From Bacillus pumilus (GTDB lineage: Bacteria > Bacillota > Bacilli > Bacillales > Bacillaceae), in assembly GCF_038738535.1 (NCBI RefSeq), contig NZ_CP046128.1, positions 2,790,001 to 2,854,000 on the forward strand: a stretch of 64,000 nucleotides of DNA, read 5' to 3'. The translations under genes and the position numbers were made by a program. How positions within the stretch are numbered: position 1 is the stretch's first letter; the number at the start of each line of letters is the position of its first letter. Under the pieces are notes generated by a model that worked only from the letters and a program-made list of their open reading frames with translations, was not told where the DNA came from and did no database searches. Below are positions 8,391-58,600 of the stretch, piece after piece.

Positions 8391-8717
8391 ATTTATCACA
8401 CGCTCCTTCAATGAACTCCATTTTTCACATTGGAACTTCTATTATATCAAAATTTACGTGCCTATACGATCATTGCCAGTCTGTCTTTACTTAATGAACA
8501 TTTATATTTTCACACGCGGAAGGGCATCATGAAAAAAGCGATGAAAATTTGTGCAGCCCGCCTGCATTCTCCTCGTTCCACATCTACTTTCTTTAATGTT
8601 ATAATTGAACATGGACTTGGCAGCATTTGATACTGCTATCATTTTTTCATCTTACTAGGGTACACAGTCCATCATTTCGCACCATATTTTTTCTTACAGA
8701 GAGGATGTTTCTTGTTC
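8391..8717. other. Divergent promoter region pepA/yuiD
   Basis: 327 bases between divergent genes. Two TATAAT hexamers are visible, one on the minus strand at 8441-8446 (pepA) and one on the plus strand at 8600-8605 (yuiD), neither with a strong -35. A 34-codon plus-strand reading frame at 8529-8633 has a modest ribosome site but no recognisable content. Nothing else is recognised. Confidence 0.4.
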
Positions 8718-9194: not shown

Positions 9195-9200
9195 AAGCGA

Positions 9201-9237
9201 AAAAAGCTTTGGACCTAAAACTTGTCCAAAGCTTTTT
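9201..9237. terminator. Bidirectional terminator yuiD/yuiC
   Basis: Perfect 14-bp arms AAAAAGCTTTGGAC and GTCCAAAGCTTTTT with a 9-base loop between convergent genes; the right arm reaches the yuiC stop codon. Confidence 0.93.
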
Positions 9238-9881
9238 TATTCTTTATTGGCTTGAAACTGCTGACGGAACACTTGCATTGATTCTGCTTCATTGAGCTGG
9301 TTTAAGTCTTTTTCCGTTAACGTCCCTTCGCCCTTTTTGATGATATACACATCAAGCACTTTTTTACCCCATTCTCTATACACATCATCTACGGTTTCAT
9401 AGTATAAATCAAGCTTATGACCTTTAATGGCTTTTCCCGTATCTGCGACCACTCCGTAGCCATAGTTTGGGATAAACAGCACGGTTCCAATCGGAAAGAC
9501 TGATGGGTCTGCTGCCACAGTTGAATATAAGTCACGTTTCACTTTGACGCCTGAATATGTAATGCCATATGCATGGTGTTCCTTCGTTTTACCTGTTGAT
9601 TCCACACCTGCTGTATAACCTGTGGCGACAACCTTTTGCTTCGGGTAATCGTTCCAATTAAACGCTTCTTCGAGAGAAACAGCCCGCAAGTCATCACTTT
9701 TGAGTGCCATCGTTTCCCTTTTTTGCTGTTGGAAAAAAGAAGATACTTGCTTAACAGGATCAGTCTCTTTCACCCAGACAGCTAAATCACTTGGTTCAAC
9801 TCCAGATATGCCCGTAAAGCTTGTCAAGAGAGCAAGCATGAAAAGGGCTGTCATGAACAATCGTTTCATCCATGTTTTCAT
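9237..9881 (-). CDS. yuiC: YuiC, secreted 3D-domain cell-wall lytic protein
   Basis: A 214-residue exported protein. Residues 1-27 are a signal peptide or anchor ([19 protein letters not shown]) followed by a linker. The C-terminal half is a 3D domain (MltA-like double-psi barrel, stationary-phase secretion family) with its three Asp in [17 protein letters not shown] and LDLYY. B. subtilis YuiC has been described as a muralytic (lytic transglycosylase-like) enzyme; the catalytic Asp of VADTG is present. The ATG follows GGAGTG. It acts on peptidoglycan outside the membrane. Confidence 0.9.
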
Positions 9882-9950
9882 CTTTATTTGTCACTCCTCT
9901 ACCCATCTATTTGTTTCCAAACAAAATGGAAACTATGCAAAGGAGAAACA

Positions 9951-9982
9951 AAAAAACCCACTTGCATGTCTACAAGTGAGTT
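9951..9982 (-). terminator. yuiB terminator
   Basis: AACCCACTTG and CAAGTGAGTT arms with an 8-base loop, and seven T on the minus strand; overlaps the yuiB stop. Confidence 0.85.
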
Positions 9983-10301
9983 AAAACATTTGATACCCTC
10001 TTTTTCGAAGTGCATTGATGACAAAACCTGATGCAATTGCACCAATCAGACCGCTTAACAAGATAATGATATCTGCCGCAGCGAGAGAGACAATGCGTTC
10101 TCCTATCCCTGAAAAAGCAATGCCCGGTTCTCTGACATAAGCGATCATCTTTTGATTATTGATAATGAAAAGGCATACAATTGGATATAAAATAGCCATA
10201 ATCCATGACATTCTCAGCAGCATATTGAGCAAAAAGCCAATGCCGAAGAATAACACGAAAAATAAAATAACTGAAATGATAACGACTGGTAAACTGATCA
10301 C
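9981..10301 (-). CDS. yuiB: YuiB, small membrane protein
   Basis: A 106-residue protein with about three hydrophobic segments (residues 2-24, 31-50, 70-95) and a short basic tail (LRKRGYQMF). It matches B. subtilis YuiB in size and place; its function is not known. The GTG start at 10301 has GGTGGAG 5 bases upstream. It follows yuiA by 81 bases on the same strand, so the two may be co-transcribed. Confidence 0.82.
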   Translation of the reverse strand: MISLPVVIISVILFFVLFFGIGFLLNMLLRMSWIMAILYPIVCLFIINNQKMIAYVREPGIAFSGIGERIVSLAAADIIILLSGLIGAIASGFVINALRKRGYQMF

Positions 10302-10382
10302 TTCATCTCCACCCCCAAATATCCCATCATTAGTTTAACTTGGAAATAGAGATGAAGTCAATCAATGGAAAAAGCAGATGGA

Positions 10383-10508
10383 TTAAAGCTTCTTTCCTGT
10401 CCCTTTACATTCCTCACATGTTTCAGATCCGCCGAGCAATAGCTGAAAATACCCTTTCCCCGAACAATATTGACAGGTGGATTTTTTTTCTTTTGTTTGT
10501 GCATTCAT
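10383..10508 (-). CDS. yuiA: YuiA, 41-residue DnaJ-type zinc-finger protein
   Basis: Small gene of 42 codons. The product MNAQTKEKKSTCQYCSGKGY continues to a second CEECKGTGKKL, giving two CxxCxGxG elements like half of a DnaJ zinc-binding domain. They are 14 residues apart, so one zinc site with four Cys is likely. The ATG at 10508 follows AGGGAGTG by 7 bases. It matches B. subtilis YuiA in content and place (upstream of yuiB). Role unknown; a small zinc-binding or chaperone-linked protein is an inference. Confidence 0.85.
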   Translation of the reverse strand: MNAQTKEKKSTCQYCSGKGYFQLLLGGSETCEECKGTGKKL

Positions 10509-10602
10509 ATTGCTCACTCCCTTAATCTAAATTTTCTGATAATTCATCATAACATACTTTGCTGCCGATGACCAAGTAAGAAAATATGCCATACGTCATA
10601 AA

Positions 10603-10633
10603 AAAAACGTGTATCACGAGGATACACGTTTTT
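10603..10633 (-). terminator. yumB terminator
   Basis: Perfect 13-bp arms AAAAACGTGTATC and GATACACGTTTTT with a 5-base loop, 12 bases past the yumB stop. Confidence 0.93.
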
Positions 10634-10645
10634 GTCTATTAAGGT

Positions 10646-11857
10646 TTAGAAGAACTTGAATTTTCCTTTTTTCAGAACAAGTCCTGGGCCGCCAACCATG
10701 AATAAAGAACGGTTGTCGATGATTTTCTTCATTGCAGAAGCTTTTGTTCCTTGAAGTTTTTTACCAAACGCAACACCTACAGCGTCGTGTTCACCAAGAG
10801 AAGCAACTGTTCCTTTGATGTCTGGCTTAAAGCTTTCAAGAGAACCACCTTTAACTAGTGCTGCAAGGTTTTTCGCTACTGTTTCACCTTGCTGCATCGC
10901 GATTTGTGCAGTTGGTGGGTATGGACGGTTGATTTCTTCATTGATGATCAATGAACAGTCACCGATGATGAATACATCATCATTTTCTGGTACACGAAGA
11001 TCTGGAGACACTTTTACGCGGCCGCGCATGTTTTCAAATCCAGCTTCTTCAACGATTGGGTTACCGCGTACACCAGCAGCCCAAACAACAGTTTCAGCTT
11101 TGATTTCTTCTGTATCATCGTCTTTTCCAACAATGATGCCTTCAGGCGTACATTCTTTGATCGCTGTACCAATTTTGAACTCAACACCTTTACCTTGAAG
11201 GTAGTTCATTGCATAGTCGATCAATTCAGGATCGAATCCTGGAAGAGCTGTTGGTGCAGCTTCTACACAGATGATACGTACGTCTTTTTGATCAATATCA
11301 TACTCTTTGCAAAGCTCAGGCACACGGTTTCCAAGCTCACCTAGGAACTCAATACCTGTGAAGCCTGCACCGCCGACAACGATTGTCAAGCGCTCTGGAC
11401 GTTTTTCAGCTTCCGTATTATACGTCGCAAATTGAAGCTCAATGTGCTCACGAAGCTGACGAGCAGAGTTGATATTAGAGATTGAGAATGCATATTCTTT
11501 CAGTCCTGCAATACCAAATGTTTCAGGAACAGCACCAAGTGCAACAACAAGGTAGTCGTAAGAAAGTTCGCCATCTGATGTCACAACTTTCTTTGCTTCC
11601 TTATTAATGCTTTCAACTGTTGCTTGTACAAAGTTGACACGGGAACTGTTAATCACATCTTTGATTTGATAACGACAGCGGTCATGATGAAGTGTACCTG
11701 CACTTGCTTCATGTAACCATGTTGTTTCGTAATGATAATTATGCTTGTTCACAAGAGTAATGTCCGCATCATTTGTGCCAAGCTGTTTTGTTAATCTTGT
11801 TACAGTCATTAATCCGCCATAACCTGCACCTAATACAACGATTTTCGGTTTATTCAC
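10646..11857 (-). CDS. yumB: YumB, type II NADH dehydrogenase (NDH-2) family
   Basis: A 403-residue flavoprotein of the NDH-2 family, which passes electrons from NADH to quinone at the membrane face. The FAD-binding [12 protein letters not shown] lies at the N-terminus and the second dinucleotide fold [16 protein letters not shown] near residue 160. VFIIGDCS and [11 protein letters not shown] are the C-terminal FAD signatures. I chose the GTG at 11857 ([10 protein letters not shown]), aligned with the B. subtilis start and preceded by AAAGGTGG at 11 bases; a GTG at 11872 has no ribosome site. A related but shorter enzyme, yutJ, lies 4 kb away. Confidence 0.92.
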
Positions 11858-11896
11858 TGGAATCACATCCACCTTTTTTAAATTTGCTGTAAAACG

Positions 11897-11925
11897 GATA
11901 AAGAATTACATATTGCTATTCTCAA
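11897..11925 (-). promoter_or_regulatory. Possible yumB promoter
   Basis: Minus-strand TTGAGA (11920-11925), 17 bases, TTTATC (11897-11902), 39 bases before the yumB GTG. The -10 is weak. Confidence 0.4.
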
Positions 11926-11965
11926 CCGCTTTCCGGCATTTTATGAAATTTAAACAAAAAAATAA

Positions 11966-11993
11966 GTATGTGAAAATCTGAACTTTCACCTAC
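11966..11993. promoter_or_regulatory. 10-bp inverted repeat in the yumB/yumC gap
   Basis: GTATGTGAAA (11966-11975) and TTTCACCTAC (11984-11993) match at 9 of 10 positions around an 8-base spacer, about 40 bases upstream of the likely yumB -35. It has the look of an operator and contains TGTGAAA-type half sites reminiscent of redox-regulator boxes. Apart from this and the two promoters, nothing is recognised in the 397-base gap 11858-12254. Confidence 0.45.
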
Positions 11994-12254
11994 ATAAAAC
12001 GAAAGCATTTGACCGTATCCGACAAAAATTCATAAAAAATTAATATTTAGTTCCCTTAACAATAATAGCGAGTTCTGCTCCAATTTTCAAGGCTTTAAAC
12101 TGAAAATCCTTATGATAAACGGTCTTTCTCGCTTTTTCCTCTTTTTCAAAGCTTCGGCATCAAAAAACGACAAGTTTTTCAAAACAAGTCAAACGACGAT
12201 ATGTGGTATGATATGATATAGTGATAACAATTTTCATTTGGGAGGATTAAAGGA

Positions 12255-13253
12255 ATGCAAGAAGATTCTAAGGTATATGACATTACCGTTATCGGGGGCG
12301 GCCCAGTTGGATTGTTTACTGCGTTTTACGGAGGCATGAGACAGGCAAGTGTGAAAATCATTGAAAGCCTTCCTCAGCTCGGCGGTCAACTATCCGCTCT
12401 TTACCCTGAAAAATACATTTATGATGTGGCTGGTTTTCCAAAAATCCGCGCACAAGAATTAGTTGATAACTTAAAGGAACAAATGGATAAATTTGATCAA
12501 ACCATTTGCTTAGAGCAAGCAGTTGAAACAGTTGAAAAGCAGGCAGATGGTATCTTTAAACTTGTGACAAATCAAGAGATTCATTATTCTAAAACGATCA
12601 TCATTACAGCTGGTAACGGTGCATTCCAACCGAGAAAGCTTGAGCTAGGTGCAGCAGAATCATTTGAAGGAAGCAACCTGCATTACTTCATTAATGATCT
12701 GAACCAATTTGCTGGCAGACGTGTGGCCGTTCTTGGCGGCGGAGACTCTGCAGTAGACTGGGCACTAATGCTTGAACCTATCGCAAAAGAAGTATCCATT
12801 ATTCACCGCCGCGATAAATTCCGCGCCCATGAGCACAGTGTAGAAAACCTGCACAATTCGAAAGTCAATGTAGTGACGCCATTTGTGCCAACTGAGCTCA
12901 TTGGTGAAGACCGCATTGAACAGATTGTGCTCGAAGAAGTCAAAGGCGACAAAAAACAAGTGCTTGATGTAGACGACGTGATCGTCAACTTCGGTTTTGT
13001 TTCCTCCCTTGGTCCAATTAAACAATGGGGTCTTGAAATCGAAAAGAACTCGATCGTCGTGAAATCCACAATGGAAACAAACATTGAAGGCTTCTATGCG
13101 GCAGGAGACATCTGTACGTATGAAGGAAAGGTCAAATTGATTGCAAGCGGATTTGGTGAAGCACCAACGGCTGTCAACAATGCGAAAGCCTACATGGACC
13201 CGAAAGCCCGTGTACAGCCTCTTCATTCCACAAGCTTATTTGAAAACAAATAA
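12255..13253 (+). CDS. yumC: Ferredoxin/flavodoxin-NADP+ reductase (thioredoxin reductase-like)
   Basis: A 332-residue homodimeric FAD enzyme of the TrxR-like ferredoxin-NADP reductase class, the length of B. subtilis YumC. FAD-binding [12 protein letters not shown] is at the N-terminus, NADP-binding [12 protein letters not shown] near residue 155, and FYAAGDIC with the FAD-contacting Asp near residue 280. The CxxC of true thioredoxin reductases is absent, as expected. It supplies reduced ferredoxin or flavodoxin and is important for growth in B. subtilis. The ATG follows GGGAGG by 9 bases. A TATGAT -10 lies about 40 bases upstream. Confidence 0.95.
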
Positions 13254-13264
13254 AAGCGGATCAA

Positions 13265-13297
13265 AAAAAGGAGTTCCCACTAGCGGAACTCCTTTTT
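13265..13297. terminator. Bidirectional terminator yumC / zinc-ribbon gene
   Basis: Perfect 13-bp arms AAAAAGGAGTTCC and GGAACTCCTTTTT with a 7-base loop between convergent genes. Confidence 0.93.
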
Positions 13298-13300
13298 CGT

Positions 13301-13507
13301 TTATTTAAAAACCCCAATATAGGCATTCGCCATTCCAAGTACCATTGCAGCAAGCAGCACCACAACAATCCCTGCCACAACCAAAATCACCCGATCCTTC
13401 ACACGTTCCTTTTTCGGAAGCGGCTTCTCAATCCCGCAAGCTGGACACGTTTTGGAACGATACGGAATCAGTTCATGACAGTTCCTGCAATTGATTTGTT
13501 CACTCAA
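13301..13507 (-). CDS. Small zinc-ribbon membrane protein
   Basis: A 68-residue protein with an N-terminal zinc ribbon (CRNCHELIPYRSKTCPACG: two CxxC knuckles), a basic linker KPLPKKERVKDR, and one C-terminal membrane helix (about residues 41-62). Such tail-anchored zinc ribbons are common in Bacillus and have no defined function. The start is a TTG at 13507; AGAGG lies 10 bases upstream. Monocistronic, with a terminator shared with yumC. I do not recognise a specific named orthologue. Confidence 0.7.
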   Translation of the reverse strand: MSEQINCRNCHELIPYRSKTCPACGIEKPLPKKERVKDRVILVVAGIVVVLLAAMVLGMANAYIGVFK

Positions 13508-13710
13508 ACCTCAGCAACCTCTTTTCTACCTACAGTTTATGTTTGGTTCTCATGATACTCTTTTCCAGTGGAAATAGCCAGTTGTGAGAGCAAGCTGTAA
13601 CAAAATTGAGCGATTTATAAATTGTTGAAGAGATAATGGCATCAATGAAGGTTTCATCTGATCAACCGATATAGGAAATAAAGAAGATCATATGAAGGAT
13701 AGGTAGAAAG

Positions 13711-14115
13711 ATGTTAAAGCGTTTATTGATCATCAGTTTGAGCTTATTACTGATGATTAGTGGCTCAGTAGAACTGTTTGCAAAAGACTATAACAAACAT
13801 TATGCTCAGTTCGCAGCAGGATTGAATATTGATGTTGATCAACTAGGACCTTTTTTAAAGCATGTGCCCACTTCAATTTTAGATTCTGGTTTGAGTGATG
13901 AAGAAATCAAACAGATACTCTCCAAAGTTCAAAAAATGAATAAAAACAATGAAACGAAAAAAATGGGCACTTTTGAAGTGATGTACCATGAAAAACTCGC
14001 AAATATTAAAATTGTGATTGAAGTCCATGTGGAAGATGGCAATAAAGTGTTTAGCACCCAAGAGTTGGTGGATGGCCTGGATAAAGAACTGTTGAAAATA
14101 GAAGAAGCAATATGA
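13711..14115 (+). CDS. Unrecognised secreted or membrane-anchored protein
   Basis: A 134-residue protein I do not recognise. Residues 1-24 are a clean signal peptide (basic MLKRLL, hydrophobic core, likely cleavage after LFA). The mature part is Lys-rich and amphipathic, with repeated leucine-rich helical stretches (LSDEEIKQILSKVQKMNK, then LVDGLDKELLKIEEA). It has no Cys, so no disulfides. The base composition is more AT-rich than the neighbours. It sits where I recall guaC and paiAB in B. subtilis, flanked by its own terminator, so it may be a lineage-specific gain. The ATG follows GGATAGGTAG. Confidence 0.65.
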   Translation: MLKRLLIISLSLLLMISGSVELFAKDYNKHYAQFAAGLNIDVDQLGPFLKHVPTSILDSGLSDEEIKQILSKVQKMNKNNETKKMGTFEVMYHEKLANIKIVIEVHVEDGNKVFSTQELVDGLDKELLKIEEAI

Positions 14116-14120
14116 GAAAG

Positions 14121-14145
14121 AGACACTGAATGAGTGTCTTTTTTT
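14121..14145 (+). terminator. Terminator of the secreted-protein gene
   Basis: AGACACT/AGTGTCT stem, 5-base loop and seven T, 5 bases after the stop codon. Confidence 0.88.
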
Positions 14146-14162
14146 GGTTGATTTTCCTCATC

Positions 14163-14215
14163 AAAAAAGCCTCCTCGATCGTGTTGTTTACAAAAACAAA
14201 CGAACAAGAAGGCTT
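14163..14215 (-). terminator. yutM terminator
   Basis: Interrupted hairpin with AAGCCT (14167-14172) pairing AGGCTT near 14210-14215 and six T on the minus strand, downstream of yutM. Confidence 0.65.
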
Positions 14216-14236
14216 ATCTTAATCCATGATCAGTTG

Positions 14237-14599
14237 TTAACACTCTTCCGGCGTACCGGTATTCGTTGCTGTTCTGAAAGAAGAACCGCATCCGCATGAA
14301 GCAATGGCGTTCGGATTGTCGATGGTGAAACCGCCGCCCATTAGTGATTGTTTGAAATCAATGATGGTGCCGTTCATGATATCAAGGCTTTCGGAGTCGA
14401 CAAGGACCTGGATGCCTTGCTGTTCGAACTGCGTGTCTTTCTCTGAAACTTCATGGTCAAAGCCCATGCCGTATGAAAGACCGCTGCATCCGCCGCCTTT
14501 TACGCCCACTCGCAGGAACGCATTTTCTTCTTCATGTTCTTTCATCATATCTTTAATCTGCAGTGCAGCAGCTTCTGTAATGGTTACTGGTGTACTCAT
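14237..14599 (-). CDS. yutM: YutM, A-type iron-sulfur cluster carrier (SufA/ErpA family)
   Basis: A 120-residue A-type carrier that receives and passes on Fe-S clusters. The three conserved Cys are in GGGCSGLSY and CGCGSSF near the C-terminus. The ATG at 14599 (MSTPVTITEAAAL) has AGGAGG 7 bases upstream; an upstream extension to 14635 is not needed. Size and sequence match B. subtilis YutM (also called SufA or ErpA). It should cooperate with the SUF system at 57-62 kb and with YutI in this window. Confidence 0.93.
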   Translation of the reverse strand: MSTPVTITEAAALQIKDMMKEHEEENAFLRVGVKGGGCSGLSYGMGFDHEVSEKDTQFEQQGIQVLVDSESLDIMNGTIIDFKQSLMGGGFTIDNPNAIASCGCGSSFRTATNTGTPEEC

Positions 14600-14672
14600 G
14601 ATCATCCCTCCTTTTGACTGGATGTTTCTTTTCAATTATAAACGTGATGGTGCCTTTTCTCAAATAAATGGT

Positions 14673-15527
14673 TTACAGATAAAATGTGCCGTCACAAATC
14701 GTTTCAGCAGGCCCTGTCATGAGCACATGGTCGTTGTCTTTCCAGCGAATGATGAGATCTCCGCCTGCTAAGTGAACCGTCATGTCCGTTTCTTTTTTCG
14801 CCTGTCCATTCACAATCGTGGATACAGCCGCAGCGCAAGCTCCCGTTCCGCAGGCTTGAGTAATGCCAGACCCTCTTTCCCACACACGAAAATGCAGTTC
14901 TGTTTCACTGACCACTTCTACAAATTCTACATTGACGCCTTCTGGGAACATGTCATGCTTTTCGATGATTGGCCCAATTGTATCAAGCGGTGCCTTTTCA
15001 ATGTCCTCTAAATAAAAAACGATGTGCGGATTTCCCATTGAAACAGCCGTTCCATTTAAGGTTGTCGTGCCAAAATCAAGCGTTTCATTAATCGTTGTGC
15101 TGGCTGGTTCACCAAGCATCGGCATCGCTTCTTTTTCAAAACGAGGTTTTCCCATATCTACTGTCACTAAATGAACGTAATCATCTTGTACATGAACGGT
15201 CGCTTCAACAAGTCCTGACAATGTCTCAATCTGGAACGTTGTGTCAGTTACGATTTGATGCTCATACACATACTTTGCGACGCAGCGCAGACCGTTGCCG
15301 CAGTTTTTTCCCTCTGATCCATCATTGTTGAAAATGCGCATTTTCACAGGTGCAACATCTGATGGGCAAATAAGGATCATTCCGTCTGAACCGATTCCAG
15401 TATAAACAGAAGAAACCCGGATCGCTATCTCTGATAGCTGCTCTTCTGGAAGCTGTTCCTTCATCTGATTGACGTATATATAATTATTTCCTAATCCGTG
15501 CATTTTCGTGAATTGAAATGATGTCAT
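14673..15527 (-). CDS. dapF: Diaminopimelate epimerase
   Basis: Converts LL- to meso-diaminopimelate for lysine and peptidoglycan synthesis. 284 residues, the usual length, with the two catalytic Cys in [10 protein letters not shown] (about residue 75) and [13 protein letters not shown] (about residue 225), one in each half of the pseudo-symmetric fold. N-terminal [20 protein letters not shown] is typical. It is transcribed toward yutM, 73 bases apart. The space behind it (15528-15797) lacks the transporter gene yutK that I recall in B. subtilis. Confidence 0.96.
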
Positions 15528-49413: not shown

Positions 49414-50064
49414 ATGCAAACATTAATCATTAACGCGCACCCTGATTTCACTCATCGAGAAAGTTATTCAAACAAACTGCAAACACTATTTTTAGAACAG
49501 TTTAAAGAAAGGTTTCCTCATGAGGAACCAACGATTTTACATTTATATGGAACTGAAATTCCTCGTATCGAAAAAGAACAGCTGCTACGTATTTGGGATA
49601 AGCAAGCATCTGAACAAACATTAACAGCTACGGAAGAAAAAATTGCTGCTGCTTCTTCTGCTTTATTGGCTCAATTCAAAGCACATCATCGAATTGTGAT
49701 TGTGTCACCTGTTCATAATTTCAATGTGACTTCACGTATGAAAGATTATATAGATAATATCTTAATTGCTAGAGAAACGTTCAAATATACAGAAGCTGGT
49801 TCAGTTGGTCTGATGACTGACGATTATCGTGTACTTTTGCTTCAAGCAAGCGGCTCAATTTTCACAAATAACGATCGATATACACCTCTGGAATTTTCAC
49901 ATTACTACCTAAAAGAAATATTCCAAAACTTGATGGGCTTTCAACAATTTCATATTGTCCGAGCACAAGGAACAGCGATTTTAGAGAAAGAAACGATCTT
50001 GTCATCTGCAGCTGATGATTTGTCTAAAGCTTTTGATGCGTTTTACTCGCATGGCGAGATATGA
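49414..50064 (+). CDS. FMN-dependent NADH:azoreductase/quinone reductase-like flavoprotein
   Basis: A 216-residue flavodoxin-fold oxidoreductase. N-terminal TLIINAHPDFTHRESYSNKL is the FMN phosphate-binding loop; VSPVHNFNVTSRMKDYIDNI and LQASGSIFTNND contact the flavin ring in the AzoR family. It would reduce quinones or azo compounds with NAD(P)H. The ATG at 49414 has AGGAG 7 bases upstream. Divergent from the HTH-WYL gene, which probably controls it in response to a reactive compound. Followed by a strong terminator. Confidence 0.83.
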   Translation: MQTLIINAHPDFTHRESYSNKLQTLFLEQFKERFPHEEPTILHLYGTEIPRIEKEQLLRIWDKQASEQTLTATEEKIAAASSALLAQFKAHHRIVIVSPVHNFNVTSRMKDYIDNILIARETFKYTEAGSVGLMTDDYRVLLLQASGSIFTNNDRYTPLEFSHYYLKEIFQNLMGFQQFHIVRAQGTAILEKETILSSAADDLSKAFDAFYSHGEI

Positions 50065-50084
50065 ATTGGATTTTTTCAAAAATA

Positions 50085-50124
50085 AAAAGACCAAAAACGT
50101 TTGATATCACGTTTTTGGTCTTTT
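50085..50124. terminator. Bidirectional terminator at the left edge of the island
   Basis: Perfect 16-bp arms AAAAGACCAAAAACGT and ACGTTTTTGGTCTTTT with an 8-base loop. It serves the azoreductase-like gene and, 4 bases from the sufB remnant, is probably the original sufB terminator. Confidence 0.9.
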
Positions 50125-50128
50125 ATTA

Positions 50129-50169
50129 TTAGCCGATAGAACATTCCATTTCGAACTTGATTAATACGG
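50129..50169 (-). pseudogene. Displaced 3' end of sufB (attachment-site copy)
   Basis: Minus-strand codons read V LIKFEMECSIG stop; the intact sufB ends [11 protein letters not shown] stop. At the base level 50129-50169 and 57203-57242 agree at 32 of 41 aligned positions, and of the 11 sense codons compared all differences but one are silent. The similarity stops within two codons upstream. It is in the sufB orientation, 7 kb away, directly beside a strong terminator. Read as the host sufB end displaced when an element inserted. Confidence 0.85.
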
Positions 50170-50190
50170 AAATAAAGAAATTTTCAAGCC

Positions 50191-50225
50191 AAAAAGAGCC
50201 ATGAATTAAATCCAATGCTCTTTTT
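50191..50225 (-). terminator. Terminator of the restriction-modification operon
   Basis: AAAAAGAGC (50191-50199) and GCTCTTTTT (50217-50225) with a 17-base loop, T tract on the minus strand, 9 bases past the hsdM stop. Confidence 0.8.
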
Positions 50226-50233
50226 TAAGACTA

Positions 50234-51850
50234 TTATTTACCTAAAAGACTGATAAATTTACTCAGTTCTTCTTTGGCTTCATCTGTTGTCCCTTCCAGC
50301 TCATTCATTAACCCAAACAAATTATCATATGAACTCGCAATTTCCGCTTTAACTTCTGCCAACTCTTGAGCCACTTGTGATAGTGGAATAACTTCTTCTT
50401 CTTCAAACGTGTCGACATAACGTGGAATGTTTAAATTGTAATCATTTTCTTTGATTTCATCCAAAGATGCCACATGAGCATATTTTTCAACGTCTTTACG
50501 GTTACTGTATGTTTCAATAATTTTGTCGATGTTTTCAGGAGAGAGTTTGTTTTGGTTCTTTCCTTTTACAAACTCATTTGAAGCATCGATAAACAAAATA
50601 TCTTTATTCTTACGAGCTTCACGACCTTTGAATACCAAGACACAGGTTGGGATGCTTGTGCCATAAAACAAGTTAGCGGGCAATCCAATAACAGTATCTA
50701 ATAGATTATTATCGATGATATTTTTGCGGATTTTACCTTCAGAAGCACCTCGAAATAGTACCCCGTGCGGCAATACGATAGCCATTGTTCCAGTTTTATC
50801 TAAATGGTAAAGTCCATGCAGTACAAAAGCATAATCTGCCTTAGATGCAGGTGCTACACCATAACCCTTGAAACGTGTATCCTTTTCTCGATCAACGTCT
50901 TTTGTATCCCATTTATGAGAATATGGTGGGTTTGATACGACGGCGTCGAACTTCAAAGGAATTTGTGTTCCATCTTTTTCGGCAAATGGCCAGTCAGCAT
51001 CCAGTGTGTCTGCACGTTTCAACTCCATATTGCGATAATTTACCCCATGCATCATCAAGTTCATGCGAGCTAAGTTATAAGTCGTCGTATTCAACTCTTG
51101 CCCGTAAAACTCAACACTTCCTTCTTCATCACCATTTGGTAATTCTTTTTGGACTGTTAAAAGAAGTGAACCTGATCCCATTGTAGGGTCATAAACACGG
51201 AATTGACCGCCAGTACCATCTGCATCATTCGTGACAATTTTCGCTAAGATTTGACTAACTTCATGTGGTGTATAAAATTCCCCTCCTTTTTTACCAGCAT
51301 TTGCAGCAAATTGTCCAATTAAGTATTCATAAACGTCACCCAAAATGTCGTGCCCTGAATCGTCTTTGAAAGTGAACTCGTTAATTATCAACACGATATC
51401 ATTCAAAGCCTTTGCACGTTCATTTGTACTTGAACCTAGACGTGTATCCCCAAGGTTAACATCTGAAAATACATTAGCAAAGTCCGCTTCTGCAATTGCG
51501 TTACGTTTTGCATTTGTATTGAATGAGTCAAACATATCTTGGAAGTCACTAGCTTTGATTTTATGATTTTCAATTTTTGATACGATTTTGTCCCAAGTGT
51601 AAGCAGGATCAATCGCATATCCGATACCTTTACTGATTTCTTCAAGATAATCTTCTTTTTCAGTGTCATCTGTCACTTCGTAGAACTCTTCCAGATCATT
51701 GACTTTCAAGTATTCATCTTGATTTTCTGATAAGTAGCGATAGAACATAAATGGCAAAATATAATTCTTGTACTCACTTGCATCCATAGTCCCACGCAGT
51801 TTGTTAGCCATTCCCCATAGCTGTGATGTAATATGTGTTGCATTACTCAT
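50234..51850 (-). CDS. hsdM: HsdM, type I DNA methyltransferase subunit
   Basis: A 538-residue N6-adenine methyltransferase subunit. The N-terminal helical HsdM_N domain (SQLWGMANKLRGTMDASEYK) is followed by motif X/I GGEFYTPHEVSQILAKIV and YDPTMGSGSLLLTV (SAM binding), and motif IV VSNPPY (catalytic). The C-terminal helices, rich in Glu and Lys, contact HsdS. Sequence style is like the EcoR124I (type IC) group. Last gene of the operon, 18 bases after hsdS. With HsdS it methylates the recognition site; with HsdR it forms the nuclease. Confidence 0.95.
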   Translation of the reverse strand: MSNATHITSQLWGMANKLRGTMDASEYKNYILPFMFYRYLSENQDEYLKVNDLEEFYEVTDDTEKEDYLEEISKGIGYAIDPAYTWDKIVSKIENHKIKASDFQDMFDSFNTNAKRNAIAEADFANVFSDVNLGDTRLGSSTNERAKALNDIVLIINEFTFKDDSGHDILGDVYEYLIGQFAANAGKKGGEFYTPHEVSQILAKIVTNDADGTGGQFRVYDPTMGSGSLLLTVQKELPNGDEEGSVEFYGQELNTTTYNLARMNLMMHGVNYRNMELKRADTLDADWPFAEKDGTQIPLKFDAVVSNPPYSHKWDTKDVDREKDTRFKGYGVAPASKADYAFVLHGLYHLDKTGTMAIVLPHGVLFRGASEGKIRKNIIDNNLLDTVIGLPANLFYGTSIPTCVLVFKGREARKNKDILFIDASNEFVKGKNQNKLSPENIDKIIETYSNRKDVEKYAHVASLDEIKENDYNLNIPRYVDTFEEEEVIPLSQVAQELAEVKAEIASSYDNLFGLMNELEGTTDEAKEELSKFISLLGK

Positions 51851-51868
51851 TTGTGTAATCTCCTTTTC

Positions 51869-53098
51869 TTATATAAACATTTGTTGAAGTAGTGATTTTT
51901 TTAAATTTTCAAGCGAATTTAACTCACGCTGATGAAAAATGATAAGGTTGTCTATGTTCTTAAAAAAAGAACCAATTTTCTCTTGCTCTGCTCTGTCAAC
52001 TGGAAACTTGATTATATACTTCAATACGTCAGATGGTGTAATACGCTTTTGACTGTTTGATGTACCAGATGAAATTGACTCTAAATCTCTTGTTGTCTTA
52101 TCCGATAGCATTAGCTGTTCCAAAAATGCCAAGTCGATTTCAGTTGAAGTAAATGGCATGAATTCACTTGATGCAACAGCATTGCTAGGGGCGTCCTCCA
52201 CAAACCAAATTCGTTTCTGACGAACATTAAGCTTATTAATTAGCAACACATCACCTGAAACTTTGAGACGTATACTCTGCATAGAGTCGCCAAAAACAAC
52301 TTCAGGCTTTCGTCCGTTGTCATATGAAGGCATACTATATTCAACAAATGAAGCATGGGGAGTTGCTTGTGGATCAACACTTGTTCTTACAAAATCACCA
52401 ACCTTTGACAAAGAATGCTGTTCCCAAGCATCCGCAAATCCTGCAAAGCGAATTTCAGGAACATTGGCTCCATCTTTCGGAAACATTTTTTGCAGTAGAC
52501 TCTTTTTCATATCCTTCAGCAGTTCCAAGTTACGCTGATGAAGGGTGAGAAGGTTGTCTATATTAGTGAAGAATGTGCCGATTTGTTGTTGCTCTTCTAA
52601 TTTTGGATAAAGTAAATTAATCTCTTTCAAATCTGAATTATGCAAATGAACCACAGATTTCCCTTGAGCACGTTTTGACATTTCTTTTTGTTGTGTTCCA
52701 TTTGATATTGTCAAAGCTAGAAACGTTGAATTTACTTCCTGTTTAGGTTTAATAATGTTCAAGTCTCCACCAAGGATAAGCCCAGGTTTACCAATAACAG
52801 ATGCTCTTGAAATGTCTTCTGCAGATTCTCCAGACGCAGGCACAACAACTTCATTTCCTTCACTGATTACAGATTTGTCTTTCATTTCAACAAACGTGTC
52901 GACATTATTAATAATAGTTTCATATTTTGTATAAAGGCGGCCATATAAAACAACTGGAAATCCAGTATCCCTCAAATCATTCTTGGTATACCCATTCCCC
53001 TTAGAAAAATCAGCCACACTCCCTAACCTACACTGTTCCCAAGCATCCGTAAATCCTGCGAATCTGATTTGAGGTGATTTTGTTATTTTATCACTCAT
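51869..53098 (-). CDS. hsdS: HsdS, type I specificity subunit with two target-recognition domains
   Basis: A 409-residue specificity subunit. Two target-recognition domains, each opened by a repeated segment (PQIRFAGFTDAWEQ near residue 9, PEIRFAGFADAWEQ near residue 213) and closed by a repeated helix (EQQQIGTFFTNIDNLLTLHQ near residue 167, EQEKIGSFFKNIDNLIIFHQ near residue 370). The two helical spacers set the gap in a bipartite DNA site. The recognition sequence cannot be read from the protein. The repeats are near-identical in DNA and could recombine. Confidence 0.94.
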   Translation of the reverse strand: MSDKITKSPQIRFAGFTDAWEQCRLGSVADFSKGNGYTKNDLRDTGFPVVLYGRLYTKYETIINNVDTFVEMKDKSVISEGNEVVVPASGESAEDISRASVIGKPGLILGGDLNIIKPKQEVNSTFLALTISNGTQQKEMSKRAQGKSVVHLHNSDLKEINLLYPKLEEQQQIGTFFTNIDNLLTLHQRNLELLKDMKKSLLQKMFPKDGANVPEIRFAGFADAWEQHSLSKVGDFVRTSVDPQATPHASFVEYSMPSYDNGRKPEVVFGDSMQSIRLKVSGDVLLINKLNVRQKRIWFVEDAPSNAVASSEFMPFTSTEIDLAFLEQLMLSDKTTRDLESISSGTSNSQKRITPSDVLKYIIKFPVDRAEQEKIGSFFKNIDNLIIFHQRELNSLENLKKSLLQQMFI

Positions 53099-53139
53099 AT
53101 CTAATCTCCTTTTGTAGTCTTCATAATTTTATCGCTGTG

Positions 53140-56100
53140 CTATTCCGCCTTCTTAATTTCGTCGGCCATTTCGTAAAATGCTTTACGAAATTCAATGCGA
53201 TACCGAACCCAGCTTAACGCTGCAATCTCTTCAACTGCGATTTCTTTATAATCAGCTCTTGCGTCATTCATAATAGCGGTTAATTCCCCTTGTTTATCCA
53301 TATCCTCTTGACCTAATCGGTGTTTTTTAATCATGTTTTCAAGTTCCTTAGGCTTAGTACTGTTATCTAGTCCCCAAGTCCGGATGAAGTTCGTTACAAG
53401 TTGGATATTCGTATCCTTTTGTGCTTGATCCATTGCTTGGTTCATTTTTTCAACACTTCGAGGTGCTGGATAATGATCAAATTCAAACTCTTTGGTGAAA
53501 ATCTTAGATACAAAATGACTCACCTTAGATTTTTCTTTTTCATTGTCAGACTTGGCGATTTCAACTTGGATTTCATCACGTGTACTTTCCGCTTTTGACA
53601 TTTCGTTCGCGTGAACTTCGTCAGCCATTCGGGCGATCAAATCAATCAAATAATCATAGTTGATGGTCACATCGTGAATATGAACCATCGAGAGATTGAC
53701 TTGCGAAATATCAATGTCTTCTCGTTTCGCACGTCGTTCTTTCAACTCACCAGCAATGACAGTTGTTAAAATGACTTCCTGCTCTTCAGTAATACCTAAA
53801 CGTTCATAGAACTCTTCAGCATTATCATAAGCGGATATAGGATTTTTGTCATCATCTTCGGTATATTGTTTCAACTGACTCAACAAACGATTATACTCTT
53901 TCAAATTCTCAAAGACTTCATCCTGTGCTTTTTCACTTGGTGGTAATTGTACAAAATCGTCTGTGAGCGTGGAAAGCTTGTTGATGACTTCTTGCATCTC
54001 AGCTTGGACCTTGCTAAATGGTTTGGAAGTGATACCAGACTCTTCGTTGCCTTTCTTCAATTCTTCAAGTGAAAGCTGTTCGTCGGCAGATGCACGATTT
54101 GAATAAATAGCAAAAGCCTTATTCATTTCATACTCGTTTTGCTCCGGCCAACGATAATTCACGACATTTCCCCAAGGCTTATGGACAGCGTTATGTATTC
54201 GATTTGTACGTGAGTATGCCTGAATCAAGTTCCCACCCTTAAGCGTTCGATCAATATAGAGCGTATTCATCTCAGGCGCATCAAAACCGGTTAAAAGTTG
54301 ATCCACAACGATAACCAAATCTAAATACTTACCATCATCAGCTGTCTTATTCAAACGTCGTGCTAAGTCTTCTGTGTAGGCTTTAACTGTCGTCATATCA
54401 AAAGCTGTGCCAAACGTTGCGTTATAAGCTTTGATGGCTCTATGTAAGTTTTCGTTCGTTTTCAGTTGATGAACACTATTGGATGTATCTGCCGAGAAAC
54501 TCACCGCAACTTTTAATCGTTGATCTACTGGACGATTCGCATTCTCTTCTGCAAACTTATCGAAATATTCCATCGCTCTTGGTGTACTTGGTTTATTACC
54601 ACCAACGTGAACTGTAAACAAGGCATTATATTGACGCTCATTTGAACGTTTCTTCCAGTTATCGAAGATGTCTTTCACTACTAAGTTCACATGTTCTGGA
54701 CTATAGTCGTAAACACTACCACGAATATTATCATCAATATCATCTTCGGTAGGATCTTCGGGAGCCTCGATTGTTTCCTTAAATTCAACGTTAAACCCTA
54801 ATACATTTTTATCCGCAATCGCTTCTTTAATGGTATATGCATGTAATAGTTCTCCAAAGATTTCTCGTGTTTCCGGGAATTTTGGTGTACCAGTATAACC
54901 AACCCAAGCAGAATTAGAAATTGCTTTTCGAATCGTTTCAAGCATCCCTTCATTTTCGCTACCATTCCCAGTTGAACGGTGGGCTTCATCCACGATAAAA
55001 AGAATATTTTCATTCAGTGGCTTGAAGCTGTCCCGCGCTACATAACGTGACATTTTTTGGATACTTGTCACAATGATGTTCTTATCGCTTTTCTTCGTTA
55101 GTTTGCGATGAAGGTCTGAAATATTAGCTGTGTCACCCACCACACCAGTTTTCCCTTCAAAACCAGCAACAGGATCATAGGCTTTATAAGCATCTGCTGT
55201 TTGGTTGGTAAGTGCGATCCGGTCAACCAAGAAGATCACTTTATCTACATTAGATAGACGGCTTGCAAGCCACGCTGTCTTAAAACTTGTGATTGTTTTA
55301 CCTGATCCAGTTGTGTGCCAAATGTATCCTAATTTACCACCATCATATTTAAAGTCAAACTTTCTAACTTTATCAAGTACACGCTTTGTGGCATAGACTT
55401 GATAAGGACGCATGACTTTGATACTTTCTTTGTTTTTTGTACCATCTAGTATCATGTAACGTGTTGCCAAATCATGAGCCATTGGAATGGATAACACTTT
55501 ATCTGCAAACGTCTTCCATGATCGAATAGGGCGAGCATCATCTTCATTTTGCCAGTTGAAAGCAAAAGCTCGGTTAAAGTTTTCAAGTGGCGTATTTGCC
55601 ATATAACGAATATCAAAAGGTGTCATCGCGATTAAAATCTGCAAAGTTGAAAAGATACCGCTGAATTGTTTTTCAGCTATATACTGTTCCATCTGATTTA
55701 AAGATTCCGTAGCGCTATGAAGTGCTTTCTTTAGTTCAATTTGAATAATCGGCAAACCATTAATGAGCAAAGTCACATCAAACCTGCGAGTCGTTTTACC
55801 ATCAACAACTTTTGGCCGCTTAATTTGATTTACTACTTGATAAACGGTATTCCCGCCACCGACTTGGGCTTGGTCGAATACTGTCAAGAACACATGTCTA
55901 CCATTATCAAGGTCAACTTCAATTTCAGAAACACCATTAACGCCATACAAAAACTGTCCGGCCTGATAAGGTGATTCGATACTAGTGATGATTTTCTTCA
56001 CTTGGTTAAATTCAGTAACAGACAAGGGCTCATCTAATCGTGCGCTATTGTTTTGTTCTAGGATTATTTTAAAGTTATCCCAAAGTTGTTCGGTTGTTTT

Positions 56101-56196
56101 AATGTCTTTTTTGTATTCCCATTGTTTTACTCCACCGATTTTGGTCAAATAATCGATAACTTCATTTTCAAATGCTAATTCCGATTGACTTTTCAT
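53140..56196 (-). CDS. hsdR: HsdR, type I restriction endonuclease/translocase subunit
   Basis: A 1018-residue motor and nuclease subunit. The N-terminal PD-(D/E)xK nuclease shows FDVTLLINGLPIIQIELKK (Asp, then ExK). Two RecA-like helicase domains follow with Walker A HTTGSGKTITSF near residue 300, the DEAH box VDEAHRST near residue 405, and the late motifs GFDAPEMNTLYIDR and QAYSRTNR. The C-terminal 250 residues are helical and bind the methylase. Complete, with no internal stop. Starts 4 bases after the half-S gene, so translation is coupled. Confidence 0.95.
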   Translation of the reverse strand: MKSQSELAFENEVIDYLTKIGGVKQWEYKKDIKTTEQLWDNFKIILEQNNSARLDEPLSVTEFNQVKKIITSIESPYQAGQFLYGVNGVSEIEVDLDNGRHVFLTVFDQAQVGGGNTVYQVVNQIKRPKVVDGKTTRRFDVTLLINGLPIIQIELKKALHSATESLNQMEQYIAEKQFSGIFSTLQILIAMTPFDIRYMANTPLENFNRAFAFNWQNEDDARPIRSWKTFADKVLSIPMAHDLATRYMILDGTKNKESIKVMRPYQVYATKRVLDKVRKFDFKYDGGKLGYIWHTTGSGKTITSFKTAWLASRLSNVDKVIFLVDRIALTNQTADAYKAYDPVAGFEGKTGVVGDTANISDLHRKLTKKSDKNIIVTSIQKMSRYVARDSFKPLNENILFIVDEAHRSTGNGSENEGMLETIRKAISNSAWVGYTGTPKFPETREIFGELLHAYTIKEAIADKNVLGFNVEFKETIEAPEDPTEDDIDDNIRGSVYDYSPEHVNLVVKDIFDNWKKRSNERQYNALFTVHVGGNKPSTPRAMEYFDKFAEENANRPVDQRLKVAVSFSADTSNSVHQLKTNENLHRAIKAYNATFGTAFDMTTVKAYTEDLARRLNKTADDGKYLDLVIVVDQLLTGFDAPEMNTLYIDRTLKGGNLIQAYSRTNRIHNAVHKPWGNVVNYRWPEQNEYEMNKAFAIYSNRASADEQLSLEELKKGNEESGITSKPFSKVQAEMQEVINKLSTLTDDFVQLPPSEKAQDEVFENLKEYNRLLSQLKQYTEDDDKNPISAYDNAEEFYERLGITEEQEVILTTVIAGELKERRAKREDIDISQVNLSMVHIHDVTINYDYLIDLIARMADEVHANEMSKAESTRDEIQVEIAKSDNEKEKSKVSHFVSKIFTKEFEFDHYPAPRSVEKMNQAMDQAQKDTNIQLVTNFIRTWGLDNSTKPKELENMIKKHRLGQEDMDKQGELTAIMNDARADYKEIAVEEIAALSWVRYRIEFRKAFYEMADEIKKAE

Positions 56197-56200
56197 TTCA

Positions 56201-56773
56201 TTACTCCCCCTTTAATGTTCCTTCTATTACCGAGCTCGTAAACTGCCCTATCAAGTCTGCGTATTGGCTTAACTTATTTTGTAGCTTCATTGTTTCTACG
56301 TAAATAGTGCCTATTTTCTTCTGTTCCTCAATCGGAACAATTGGAACGATCATTTCCCCAAGGGCACGAAGCGGAATTCTTAGAATAGGGCCACTCCCCT
56401 GTGCCCCCCTTTCTTTTTGCTGCTTCACATCTTTATGAGCATTAAACAAGTAAAGAAAATATTTCTTATCAAGTTGTTCACTATCAAACTCTATTTTCGT
56501 AAAGTTGAGGGACAACACTTTACCAACATTATTTTCACCAACAATTGTGGCTAGCTGCAATGAGTTACTGATAACAACATCACCTTCATTTAACGATAGG
56601 TTATTTTGAGGTTTTGCCTTTTCTTCAACAGCTACGTCCTCACGATGATAATCAGCTTCAAAAGACGCTTGGTCATAATACTTTATTTCTTGAGTTTCAA
56701 ATTGCTTTTGTGCTCTTGTTGGATTAATACCGGGAACGAACGTTACGAATTCATTTAATTTACTTTTCTCCAA
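56201..56773 (-). CDS. Half-length HsdS-like specificity protein, one target-recognition domain
   Basis: A 190-residue protein with a single Methylase_S-type target-recognition domain (NEFVTFVPGINPTRAQKQ to VPIVPIEEQKKIG) and one closing helix (QNKLSQYADLIGQFTSSVIE). It lacks the second half of normal HsdS. It is the first gene of the operon and is unlike the two domains of the full HsdS downstream. A half-S can act as a dimer giving a palindromic bipartite site, or interfere with the full S. The start is a TTG at 56773; the ribosome site (GGGG, 8 bases) is weak. Confidence 0.82.
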   Translation of the reverse strand: MEKSKLNEFVTFVPGINPTRAQKQFETQEIKYYDQASFEADYHREDVAVEEKAKPQNNLSLNEGDVVISNSLQLATIVGENNVGKVLSLNFTKIEFDSEQLDKKYFLYLFNAHKDVKQQKERGAQGSGPILRIPLRALGEMIVPIVPIEEQKKIGTIYVETMKLQNKLSQYADLIGQFTSSVIEGTLKGE

Positions 56774-56826
56774 TTAAATCGCCCCAAATCATATATATGA
56801 TTTTTCGAAATATTATCATATTACAA

Positions 56827-56891
56827 ATTAAAACACATCCAGATTGTTTCGTCAACGATAATATGAAATATTTCTATATTACATATTATCG
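56827..56891 (-). promoter_or_regulatory. Promoter of the restriction-modification operon with upstream palindrome
   Basis: Minus-strand TTGACG (56850-56855), 17 bases, TTTAAT (56827-56832). Just upstream of the -35 lies a perfect 10-bp inverted repeat CGATAATATG (56856-56865) and CATATTATCG (56882-56891) with a 16-base spacer. No controller (C) protein gene is present, so the ligand of the repeat is unknown. Confidence 0.7.
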
Positions 56892-57011
56892 TTTTTAAAA
56901 AAACATCTAGAAAACTATACCATAAGCGATTTTAACATTTATATAATTTTCTATTTTTATCATATGTTTGTAACTGGTGTGCTTAAGGTATCATCTTCAG
57001 ACATAGTAATA

Positions 57012-57135
57012 TGTACAAATAAAGGCACTCATGATTTAACCTACACATGCGCAATACTGCTTCTTTAATGAGGTTGTGGGGCATAAATCGATTAAAAAAA
57101 CAGAGGACATTTATCTAGATATTACTGAAAAATAA
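57012..57135 (+). pseudogene. Remnant of a tyrosine integrase C-terminus
   Basis: Two frames carry successive integrase motifs. Frame one, from 57021, reads KGTHDLTYTCAILLL, matching the consensus HDLRHTHASLLL; the catalytic Arg-His are changed to Thr-Tyr. After a stop at 57066 the next frame (57067-57135) reads NEVVGHKSIKKTEDIYLDIT then EK and stop, matching the GH...T...IY C-terminal box with the nucleophile Tyr. A deletion with frameshift therefore lies near 57066. It sits 67 bases from the sufB end, where an integrase should be. Confidence 0.8.
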
Positions 57136-57165
57136 AAGAAGACGAACTTCAAAAGTTCGCCTTCT
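57133..57165 (-). terminator. Terminator after sufB
   Basis: AGAAGACGAACTT (57137-57149) and AAGTTCGCCTTCT (57153-57165) with one G-T pair and a T-rich tail on the minus strand. It would end suf transcripts before the island. Confidence 0.85.
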
Positions 57166-57202
57166 ACACTATTCAAACCCTTGTAAATAAAGGTTTTTAA
57201 AT

Positions 57203-58600
57203 TTAACCAATCGAACCTTCCATCTCAAACTTAATCAAACGGTTCATTTCAACGGCGTATTCCATTGGCAATTCTTTTGTGAATGGCTCGATGAAGCCCA
57301 TGACGATCATTTCTGTTGCTTCTTCTTCAGAAATTCCGCGGCTCATCAAGTAGAATAGCTGTTCTTCTGATACTTTTGATACCTTCGCTTCGTGCTCTAA
57401 TGAAATGTTGTCGTTTAAGATTTCATTGTAAGGGATCGTATCAGATGTTGATTTGTTATCCATGATGAGTGTGTCACACTCGATGTTTGAGCGTGCACCC
57501 TCTGCTTTACGTCCGAAGTGAACGATTCCGCGGTATGTGACTTTACCGCCTTGTTTGGAAATCGATTTCGATACGATCGTTGAAGATGTGTTTGGTGCAA
57601 GGTGAATCATTTTCGCACCTGCATCTTGGTGCTGACCTTTACCTGCTAGGGCAATACTTAATGTCATACCTCGAGCACCTTCACCTTTTAGGATGACCGC
57701 TGGGTATTTCATTGTCAGCTTAGAACCGATGTTTCCATCAATCCATTCCATTGTCGCATTTTCTTCACATACTGTACGTTTCGTCACAAGGTTGAAGACG
57801 TTGTTTGCCCAGTTTTGAATCGTTGTATAACGGCAGTAGCCGCCCTTTTTAACGACGATTTCAACAACCGCACTGTGAAGTGAGTTTGTTGTGTAAACTG
57901 GTGCTGTACAGCCTTCTACGTAATGCACATGTGCGCCTTCATCAACAATGATCAGTGTACGCTCGAACTGACCCATGTTCTCAGAGTTGATACGGAAGTA
58001 TGCTTGAAGTGGTGTATCTACTTTTACGCCCTTTGGTACGTAGATAAATGAACCACCAGACCATACAGCCGAGTTAAGCGCAGCAAATTTGTTGTCAGTC
58101 GGAGGAATGACTTTTGCCCAGTGCTCACGGAAGATGTCTTCGTTCTCTTTTAATGCGCTGTCTGTATCTTTAAACACAATTCCTAGATCTTCAAGGTCCT
58201 GCTTCATATTGTGATACACAACTTCAGATTCATACTGAGCAGATACACCTGCTAAATACTTTTGCTCTGCTTCTGGGATACCAAGCTTATCAAAGGTTTG
58301 TTTGATTTCTTCTGGTACTTCATCCCAAGAACGCTCAGAGCGCTCTGATGGCTTTACGTAGTACGTAATTTCATCAAAGTTTAATGCATTTAAATCTCCG
58401 CCCCATTGTGGCATCGGCATGTTGTAAAAGTGCTCAAGAGATTTCAAACGGAAGTCGAGCATCCACTGAGGCTCTTCTTTCATACGAGAAATTTCTTCAA
58501 CGATCTCTTTTGTCAGTCCGCGCTCTGAACGGAAAATGGAAACGTCTTTATCAGAAAAGCCGTATTTATATTCACCAACATCTGGCATTTTTTTAGCCAT
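57203..58600 (-). CDS. sufB: SufB, Fe-S cluster scaffold subunit
   Basis: A 465-residue SufB, core of the SufBC2D scaffold on which Fe-S clusters are built. Conserved [20 protein letters not shown] and the C-terminal region [20 protein letters not shown] are present. It shares the beta-helix core with SufD at 60274. Last gene of sufC-D-S-U-B. Its final codons (57203-57242) coincide with the right attachment site of the island, so this 3' end may have been supplied by the element; the reading frame is intact. Confidence 0.97.

Follow-up and report, generated by a model that had tools for sequence, protein, structure and literature searches.

Two sufB 3' ends flank a type I restriction-modification operon

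The window, a 64,000-bp stretch of Bacillus pumilus DNA (genome G000, contig C1, positions 2790001 to 2854000), contained sufB, an essential gene of iron-sulfur assembly, and, past its stop codon, an island with a type I restriction-modification (R-M) operon that was bounded on its far side by a second copy of the sufB 3' end. Compared genomes carry G numbers and compared loci or contigs carry L numbers; the features of the window are collected in Table 1. The two sufB ends lay in direct orientation on one strand with a spacing of 7,074 bp. Across their 11 sense codons, 3 were identical, 7 were silently different, and 1 had changed from GGT to TGT (Gly to Cys). A degenerate sufB-end pattern (≤2 mismatches) had two matches in the whole 3.6-Mb genome, which were these copies, and the same pattern read backwards had 0 matches. 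An earlier interpretation of the letters without database searches (the sequence-only reading) had placed a second sufB 3' end about 7 kb off, parallel to the first and across a type I R-M operon, with all codon changes but one silent; the coordinates, the pattern search, and the codon comparison bore this out. The far copy had been given as positions 50129 to 50169, where it was indeed present, with homology in register only from 50164 and the extra CGT one base off.

The interval between the copies was filled by open reading frames (ORFs) typed by Pfam and PADLOC as HsdM, HsdS, HsdR, and a half-length HsdS, so that the gene content of a type I R-M system was present. No genes for integration or transfer were found among the main ORFs (≥60 aa) between the copies, which were hsd genes, the integrase being present only as a fossil; no conjugation genes were found among the typed ORFs there. 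An Rfam scan (gathering threshold) and a tRNA scan of the window gave no matches.

Table 1. Features at the sufB locus, in window coordinates
Feature	Position	Strand	Description
sufB	57203..58600	-	ORF, 465 aa; last codons (Ser-Ile-Gly-stop) presumably element-derived, as judged from relatives and phage attP
Body-attached sufB 3' end	57203..57238	-	attR-type junction; core ATGGAAGG intact; codons TTG ATT AAG TTT GAG ATG GAA GGT TCG ATT GGT TAA
Far sufB 3' end	50129..50164	-	attL-type junction; 5' half apparently element-type, 3' flank host-type; core reads ATGGAATG; codons TTA ATC AAG TTC GAA ATG GAA TGT TCT ATC GGC TAA
Native terminator that follows sufB in the empty site and was displaced by the island	50085..50124	-	16-bp stem; near-identical DNA directly after sufB in G018
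Left-flank host gene	49414..50064	+	NAD(P)H oxidoreductase-like, judged by eye; adjoins sufB in the empty site
Terminator-like hairpin	57137..57165	- (sufB sense strand)	13-bp stem, then TTTATTTTTC; antisense of the integrase tail; z -5.95
Integrase fossil, part 1	57079..57132	+	GHKSIKKTEDIYLDITEK, then stop; tblastn E 1.7e-6, 1.8e-4 in a larger search
Integrase fossil, part 2	57135..57173	+	Other frame; KEDELQKFAFYTI; the intact integrase of G058 terminates in EEDELKKFASYTKR
HsdM, type I R-M methyltransferase	50234..51850	-	538 aa; Pfam PF02384 1e-114, PF12161; PADLOC MTase_I
HsdS, specificity subunit	51869..53098	-	409 aa; Pfam PF01420 9.5e-24
HsdR, type I restriction subunit	53140..56196	-	1018 aa; Pfam PF22679, PF18766, PF12008, PF04313
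Half-length HsdS-like ORF	56201..56773	-	190 aa, TTG start; PF01420 1.7e-6; 92% identical counterpart in G030

Empty and occupied sufB sites in related genomes

The empty state of the site was seen in G018, the sufB protein of which has an identity to that of the window that rounds to 100%. No second sufB end was found in this genome; the left-flank gene begins 52 bp after sufB, and the terminator is nearly that of window positions 50085 to 50124. An empty site joining the sufB body to this terminator and the left-flank gene had been predicted from the sequence, as had other genomes with cargo between two sufB 3' ends, and both were found. Islands between the sufB body and a second end occurred in 7 of 44 genomes of the genus (G000, G002, G021, G022, G029, G030, and G042, including that of the window), and these counts are minima, as some assemblies lie in many contigs. 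The far side of the G029 island was not a clean host flank and resembled the right end of another element. Outside the genus, islands between sufB ends were also present in G044, G049 (three copies), G058, and G059.

The cargo differed among these islands. G021 carried a different type I R-M system (HsdR 33 to 35% and HsdM 48% identical to those of the window), and the HsdR of G029 was 95% identical to that of G021. Type IIG R-M genes with a methyltransferase were found in G022 and G042; a helicase with ABC-3C-type and DUF2326 proteins in G058; and a 37-kb prophage in G002, where the 6 proteins that were scanned included those of capsid, tail tube, tail, and tape-measure type. The element of G059 (L088, positions 7102 to 15385) was an 8.3-kb satellite-like sufB element with an integrase, a DUF5906 protein, an S78 prohead protease, and a major capsid gene, and it appears to be a capsid-encoding phage satellite (cfPICI). 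This element has an integrase and capsid genes; the window island instead keeps only R-M cargo and an integrase fossil.

At sites without a clear second copy, the DNA 3' of sufB encoded an OLD-like ATPase (G015), GIY-YIG/helicase functions (G038), or LXG and LHH proteins (G014); the second-end matches of G014 and G015 were weaker (4 and 3 mismatches) and did not enter the count of island edges. Sequences resembling the sufB end were also seen away from such islands. G008 (L036) had a lone sufB 3' end 1.9 Mb from sufB on the opposite strand, followed by DNA nearly identical to that after the real end, and G037 (L038) had one on a contig other than that of sufB. G006 (L066, L095) contained a stretch like the sufB C terminus about 2.7 kb past sufB (86% over residues 400 to 457), with a further piece adjoining.

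Tyrosine integrases beside sufB

Integrases were sought in a family set of 80 genomes, 78 of which yielded a sufB end. Integrase sequence lay ≤400 bp from the sufB stop in 24 of these 78 genomes, including that of the window (reversed control, 0; shuffled control, 0). The integrase of G058 was intact, 385 aa in length, of the tyrosine type (PF00589 5.8e-22, PF14659), and convergent with sufB. Related intact integrases adjoined sufB in three further genomes, namely, G002 and G020 (75 and 88 bp between matches, respectively) and G059 (65% identical to I58, the G058 type), and broken integrases were found by sufB in G011, G013, G015, G023, G029 (1.8 kb off), and G041. The sufB integrases formed two groups, I58-type and I02/I20-type, about 38% identical to each other.

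Beside the sufB stop of the window, a C-terminal integrase fossil was preserved in two parts. The first aligned with the C terminus of the integrases (alignment A1), and the stretch of the G058 integrase that matches both parts reads GHKSIKTTADTYLDITEKIEEDELKKFASYTKR. This stretch includes the tyrosine that is catalytic in such integrases.

Phage attachment sites and the origin of the last sufB codons

The sufB end was also found in phage and viral sequences, as the attachment site of the incoming partner (attP). In the isolated Brevibacillus phage Emery (KC595516.1), a sufB 3' end lay 76 bp past the integrase match with no sufB body there, and the parts examined of viral contigs L101, L129, L134, L138, L147, and L157 likewise had a sufB 3' end as attP without a sufB body. 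The serine codon of these seven phage or viral attP sites was AGY in 6 and TCN in 1 (L101), in scans that covered both serine codon types. Among the body copies of the family, the codon was TCN in 68 of 78 and AGY in 10 of 78. Integrase sequence was found ≤400 bp from sufB in 9 of 10 AGY genomes versus 15 of 68 TCN genomes (Fisher test, P = 5.8e-5, uncorrected for shared ancestry), and the tenth AGY genome was G029, with an integrase fragment 1.8 kb from sufB. Because no single silent step converts TCN to AGY, the AGY ends were most simply brought in. Judged from these ends and the phage attP sites, import of the last codons of sufB is clear.

The sequences place the crossover in or beside the 8-bp core ATGGAAGG. 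Among 151 distinct copies (≤2 mismatches), the wobble base inside the core was A in 148, and the wobble base just before it was A in 80 and G in 71. One of the 151 copies had a changed base at the first G of the core GG, as has the far copy of the window; other fixed core positions were partly imposed by the search pattern. Over the 5' 15 bases, the body copies of G000, G021, G022, and G042 were 0 to 2 bases off the apparently empty sites of G018 and G004, and the far copies were 3 to 4 bases off, a clean separation. Over the 3' 12 bases, the far and body copies were 0 and 2 bases off G018 in G021, 1 and 2 in G022, and 2 and 2 in the window; those of G042 were each 1 base off G004. The copies thus show import clearly in G021 and weakly in G022, and the window and G042 are undecided by the last 12 bases. 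The suggestion of the sequence-only reading that the last codons were imported finds its best support in the AGY serine codon of phage attP sites and of sufB in 10 of 78 relatives; for the Ser-Ile-Gly-stop codons of the window itself, an element origin is presumed from these cases. The far copy appears to be hybrid: over its 5' half it matches the far copies found in other islands, and host sequence is confined to its 3' part and flank, so that a tree of the whole copy would mislead.

The sequence-only reading had taken the paired ends as the footprint of integration at the sufB 3' end, and the empty site, the islands in relatives, the adjoining integrases, and the phage attP sites agree with it. 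The second end could instead have arisen without an integrase, by ordinary segmental duplication or by an insertion of R-M genes that duplicated a long target. Such an origin would fit the lack of an intact recombinase in the window, as a search of G000 with the G058 integrase gave no match at E ≤ 1e-20. It is opposed by the integrases beside sufB in relatives, the fossil in the window, the sufB-end attP in phages, and the empty site, and a recent duplication is further opposed by the 7 silent changes in 11 codons, which leave the copies too diverged. We regard it as highly improbable.

An antisense hairpin in the integrase tail

Read on the sufB strand, the integrase tail contained a terminator-like hairpin at positions 57165 to 57137 (folding energy, -20.7 kcal/mol). 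Of the terminator-like sites in positions 49900 to 57400, this one (13 pairs) and the native terminator at 50124 to 50085 (16 pairs) were the strongest two, and the rest had 5 to 6 pairs. The same property was found in most I58-type integrases. Among 29 distinct tails (57 to 100% protein identity), 26 ranked at ≤2 of 200 synonymous recodings and 23 beat all 200, with a mean z of -5.6 over all 29. Tails were re-anchored on the DEL.KF motif, as those with extended C termini (L188, L189, and L268 to L270) scored poorly on the last 24 codons. The T-tract was one-sided: the 8 bases scored contained a mean of 5.8 T on the sufB strand, where the tract follows the hairpin, and 1.1 on the integrase strand.

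The codons of the tail were also unusually constant. In 23 integrases, identical-codon frequency in the tail was 0.78 (0.84 in the best 12-codon window) against a gene window median of 0.469, and the top 8 of 321 windows ranked by codon identity were all in the tail. The helix was 92.8% paired, with both-side changes at 3 of 13 pairs; when the partner was slid one column, 3 pairs likewise changed on both sides (4 cells against 7), and covariation support for the helix is modest. A terminator followed sufB in 18 of 19 intact I58-type elements (1.35 expected from shuffles); in L188, the best terminator match after sufB was another hairpin. In G001, G017, G035, and G073, the hairpin stood after sufB with no detectable integrase match.

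The hairpin probably acts as an intrinsic terminator of the sufB transcript. The use of about 20 last integrase codons, in antisense, as an intrinsic-terminator-like hairpin for sufB in one integrase subfamily is apparently new: a narrow search of the open-access literature found no description of a terminator in an integrase tail, and the accessible portion of PMC3234194 does not describe one.

groEL-targeting integrases with a similar hairpin

A further 122 integrases were scored, and 6 had a hairpin at ≤1 of 100 recodings, with tails like MKKEASQKFKELMENL. Two of these (L228 and L233) adjoined groEL, L238 had a groEL end, and L217 had groEL behind two genes; no groEL was seen near L222 and L334. 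A search of 249 genomes of the order for L228 relatives gave one at E ≤ 1e-120 in 24 genomes. The resulting groEL group comprised 35 loci, namely, 30 L228 relatives and the 5 loci that prompted the idea, which had been picked for the hairpin. A groEL 3' end lay just past the integrase stop in 24 of the 35 (L228, L233, L238, and 21 of L424 to L453).

The antisense tail beat all 60 recodings in 22 of 23 scored loci with a groEL end versus 3 of 11 without (Fisher test, P = 7e-5) and, with the 5 picked loci removed, in 19 of 20 versus 1 of 9 (P = 2e-5); both comparisons are uncorrected for relatedness, and the query from which the group was built had itself been selected on its hairpin. A search for bulge-free stems found 3 in 35 groEL-group tails (0.75 expected); the claim for groEL is based on folding energy. 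We somewhat favor a generalization by which an integrase that inserts at the 3' end of an essential host operon carries, in the antisense of its last codons, a terminator that replaces that of the host gene. This would have arisen at least two times (sufB-type and groEL-type), and after decay of the element the tail would persist as the terminator of the host gene.

Alternatively, the tail palindrome could serve the element itself, for DNA binding or regulation, and be no terminator for the host gene; this would fit its distance of about 90 to 130 bp from the core in most intact elements, where recombination proteins may bind. The restriction of the T-tract to the sufB strand, the persistence of the hairpin after sufB in the four genomes without an integrase match, and the antisense hairpin in the different-looking tail of the groEL-targeting integrases speak against such a site, which we consider unlikely.

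Fate of the island

GTGCC-type repeats adjoined the core in G022, G042, and G058 and were absent beside the core at the right end of the window. Both attL and attR were present in the window, the former with a mutated core. The island is probably immobile now, locked in place because the repeats were lost and the far core mutated. It might still move in trans, or as an accretion unit together with an incoming sufB-specific element. A tandem arrangement of this kind was found in G030 (L043), where sufB was followed by an element with a Rap phosphatase gene and a decayed I20-type integrase, a second sufB end, the same hsd island, and a third, degenerate sufB end at the far edge; accretion of cis-mobilizable elements (CIMEs) has been described (PMC5704250). 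With the far core reading ATGGAATG and the right end devoid of the repeats, present mobility of the window island appears distinctly unlikely.

Proposed history of the locus

The island very probably represents what is left, after decay, of an integrative element with a sufB-end integrase. The ancestor would have been a phage, phage satellite, or similar element, the tyrosine integrase of which recombined in or beside ATGGAAGG, within the final sufB codons. By this event the host's own sufB end and terminator would have been displaced by 7 kb, and sufB would have received an element-supplied end without a change in its protein. The integrase gene, which faced sufB from just beyond the sufB stop, may then have given sufB an intrinsic terminator through the antisense of its last ~20 codons. 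Decay would have reduced the integrase to the C-terminal fossil that holds the hairpin, with the R-M cargo retained, and loss of the GTGCC-type repeats and mutation of the far core would have locked the island.

Such an element may enter an essential operon at little cost, as the end of the protein is restored codon for codon and the end of the transcript apparently as well, the latter supplied by the antisense of its own integrase gene. This history would explain the exact position of the defense operon at the sufB end. The serine codon switch and the hairpin may also serve as marks, readable from sequence, of earlier integrations in genomes where no element is apparent any longer.

Several results weigh against this history. 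The window fossil is short (39 aa at 43.6%), and the last 12 bases of the two copies in the window, each 2 off G018, do not separate host from element. The parent element of the window's own hsd operon was sought in the 80 family genomes and none was found, no element there combining this operon with an intact integrase; in G030, which has the one close HsdR relative (98%), the integrase likewise survives only as a fossil. A recent transfer of the island, sought by identity, was not seen: the island and the sufB side were similarly diverged in G000 and G030 (94.9 to 95.6 against 96.4%) and in G021 and G029 (86.7 against 84.4%). The number of terminator-like sites was not above chance (7 versus 5.3 expected), only the two strongest standing out. 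Integrases L190, L191, and L193 had no hairpin even after re-anchoring, and in two sets of the I02/I20 subfamily, which share contigs, terminators were found in only 1 of 6 elements (0.3 expected) and 2 of 20 elements (1.25 expected). A tail terminator in every sufB-specific integrase was rejected on the last result.

Relation to known elements

Integration at the sufB 3' end is already published for staphylococci and Latilactobacillus. In Staphylococcus aureus, prophages of the Sa1int type occupy the sufB 3' end (PMC11217367, PMC6036120), and prophages of S. argenteus (PMC11117363) and S. pseudintermedius (PMC8297860) lie at or beside it. These share the integration place with the window island and differ in being prophages in another family. 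Group IV prophages of Latilactobacillus sakei have the att pair TACCCTACGGACCCTTCCA / TATCCTACAGACCCTTCCA, which is the antisense of a sufB end and contains CCTTCCA (TGGAAGG), like the window target; they are prophages with an integrase, and the portion of the report available describes neither an R-M remnant nor an analysis of imported codons (PMC9641780). In two further reports, SufB is named among host genes at prophage regions (PMC12724294) and given as encoded by Paenibacillus larvae prophages (PMC9341999); in the latter case, the gene could belong to the host and adjoin a prophage inserted at sufB.

CIMEs resemble the window island in being att-flanked islands without a recombinase, with tandems as in G030 (PMC5704250), and ICESt1 and ICESt3, which lie at the fda 3' end, resemble it as elements at a gene 3' end (PMC3234194). 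The window island differs from CIMEs and integrative and conjugative elements in that its ancestor may be a phage or satellite, with no conjugative ancestor shown, and in that one core is mutated.

The hsd genes of the window and G030

The hsd operon of the window is presumed to be active in R-M. Compared with the island of G030, HsdR and HsdM were 98% identical and HsdS was 65% identical, and the target specificity of hsdS (window positions 51869 to 53098) appears to have been swapped. Separately, an 86% direct repeat was present within hsdS at positions 52418 to 52459 and 53033 to 53074, perhaps an internal repeat of specificity subunits.

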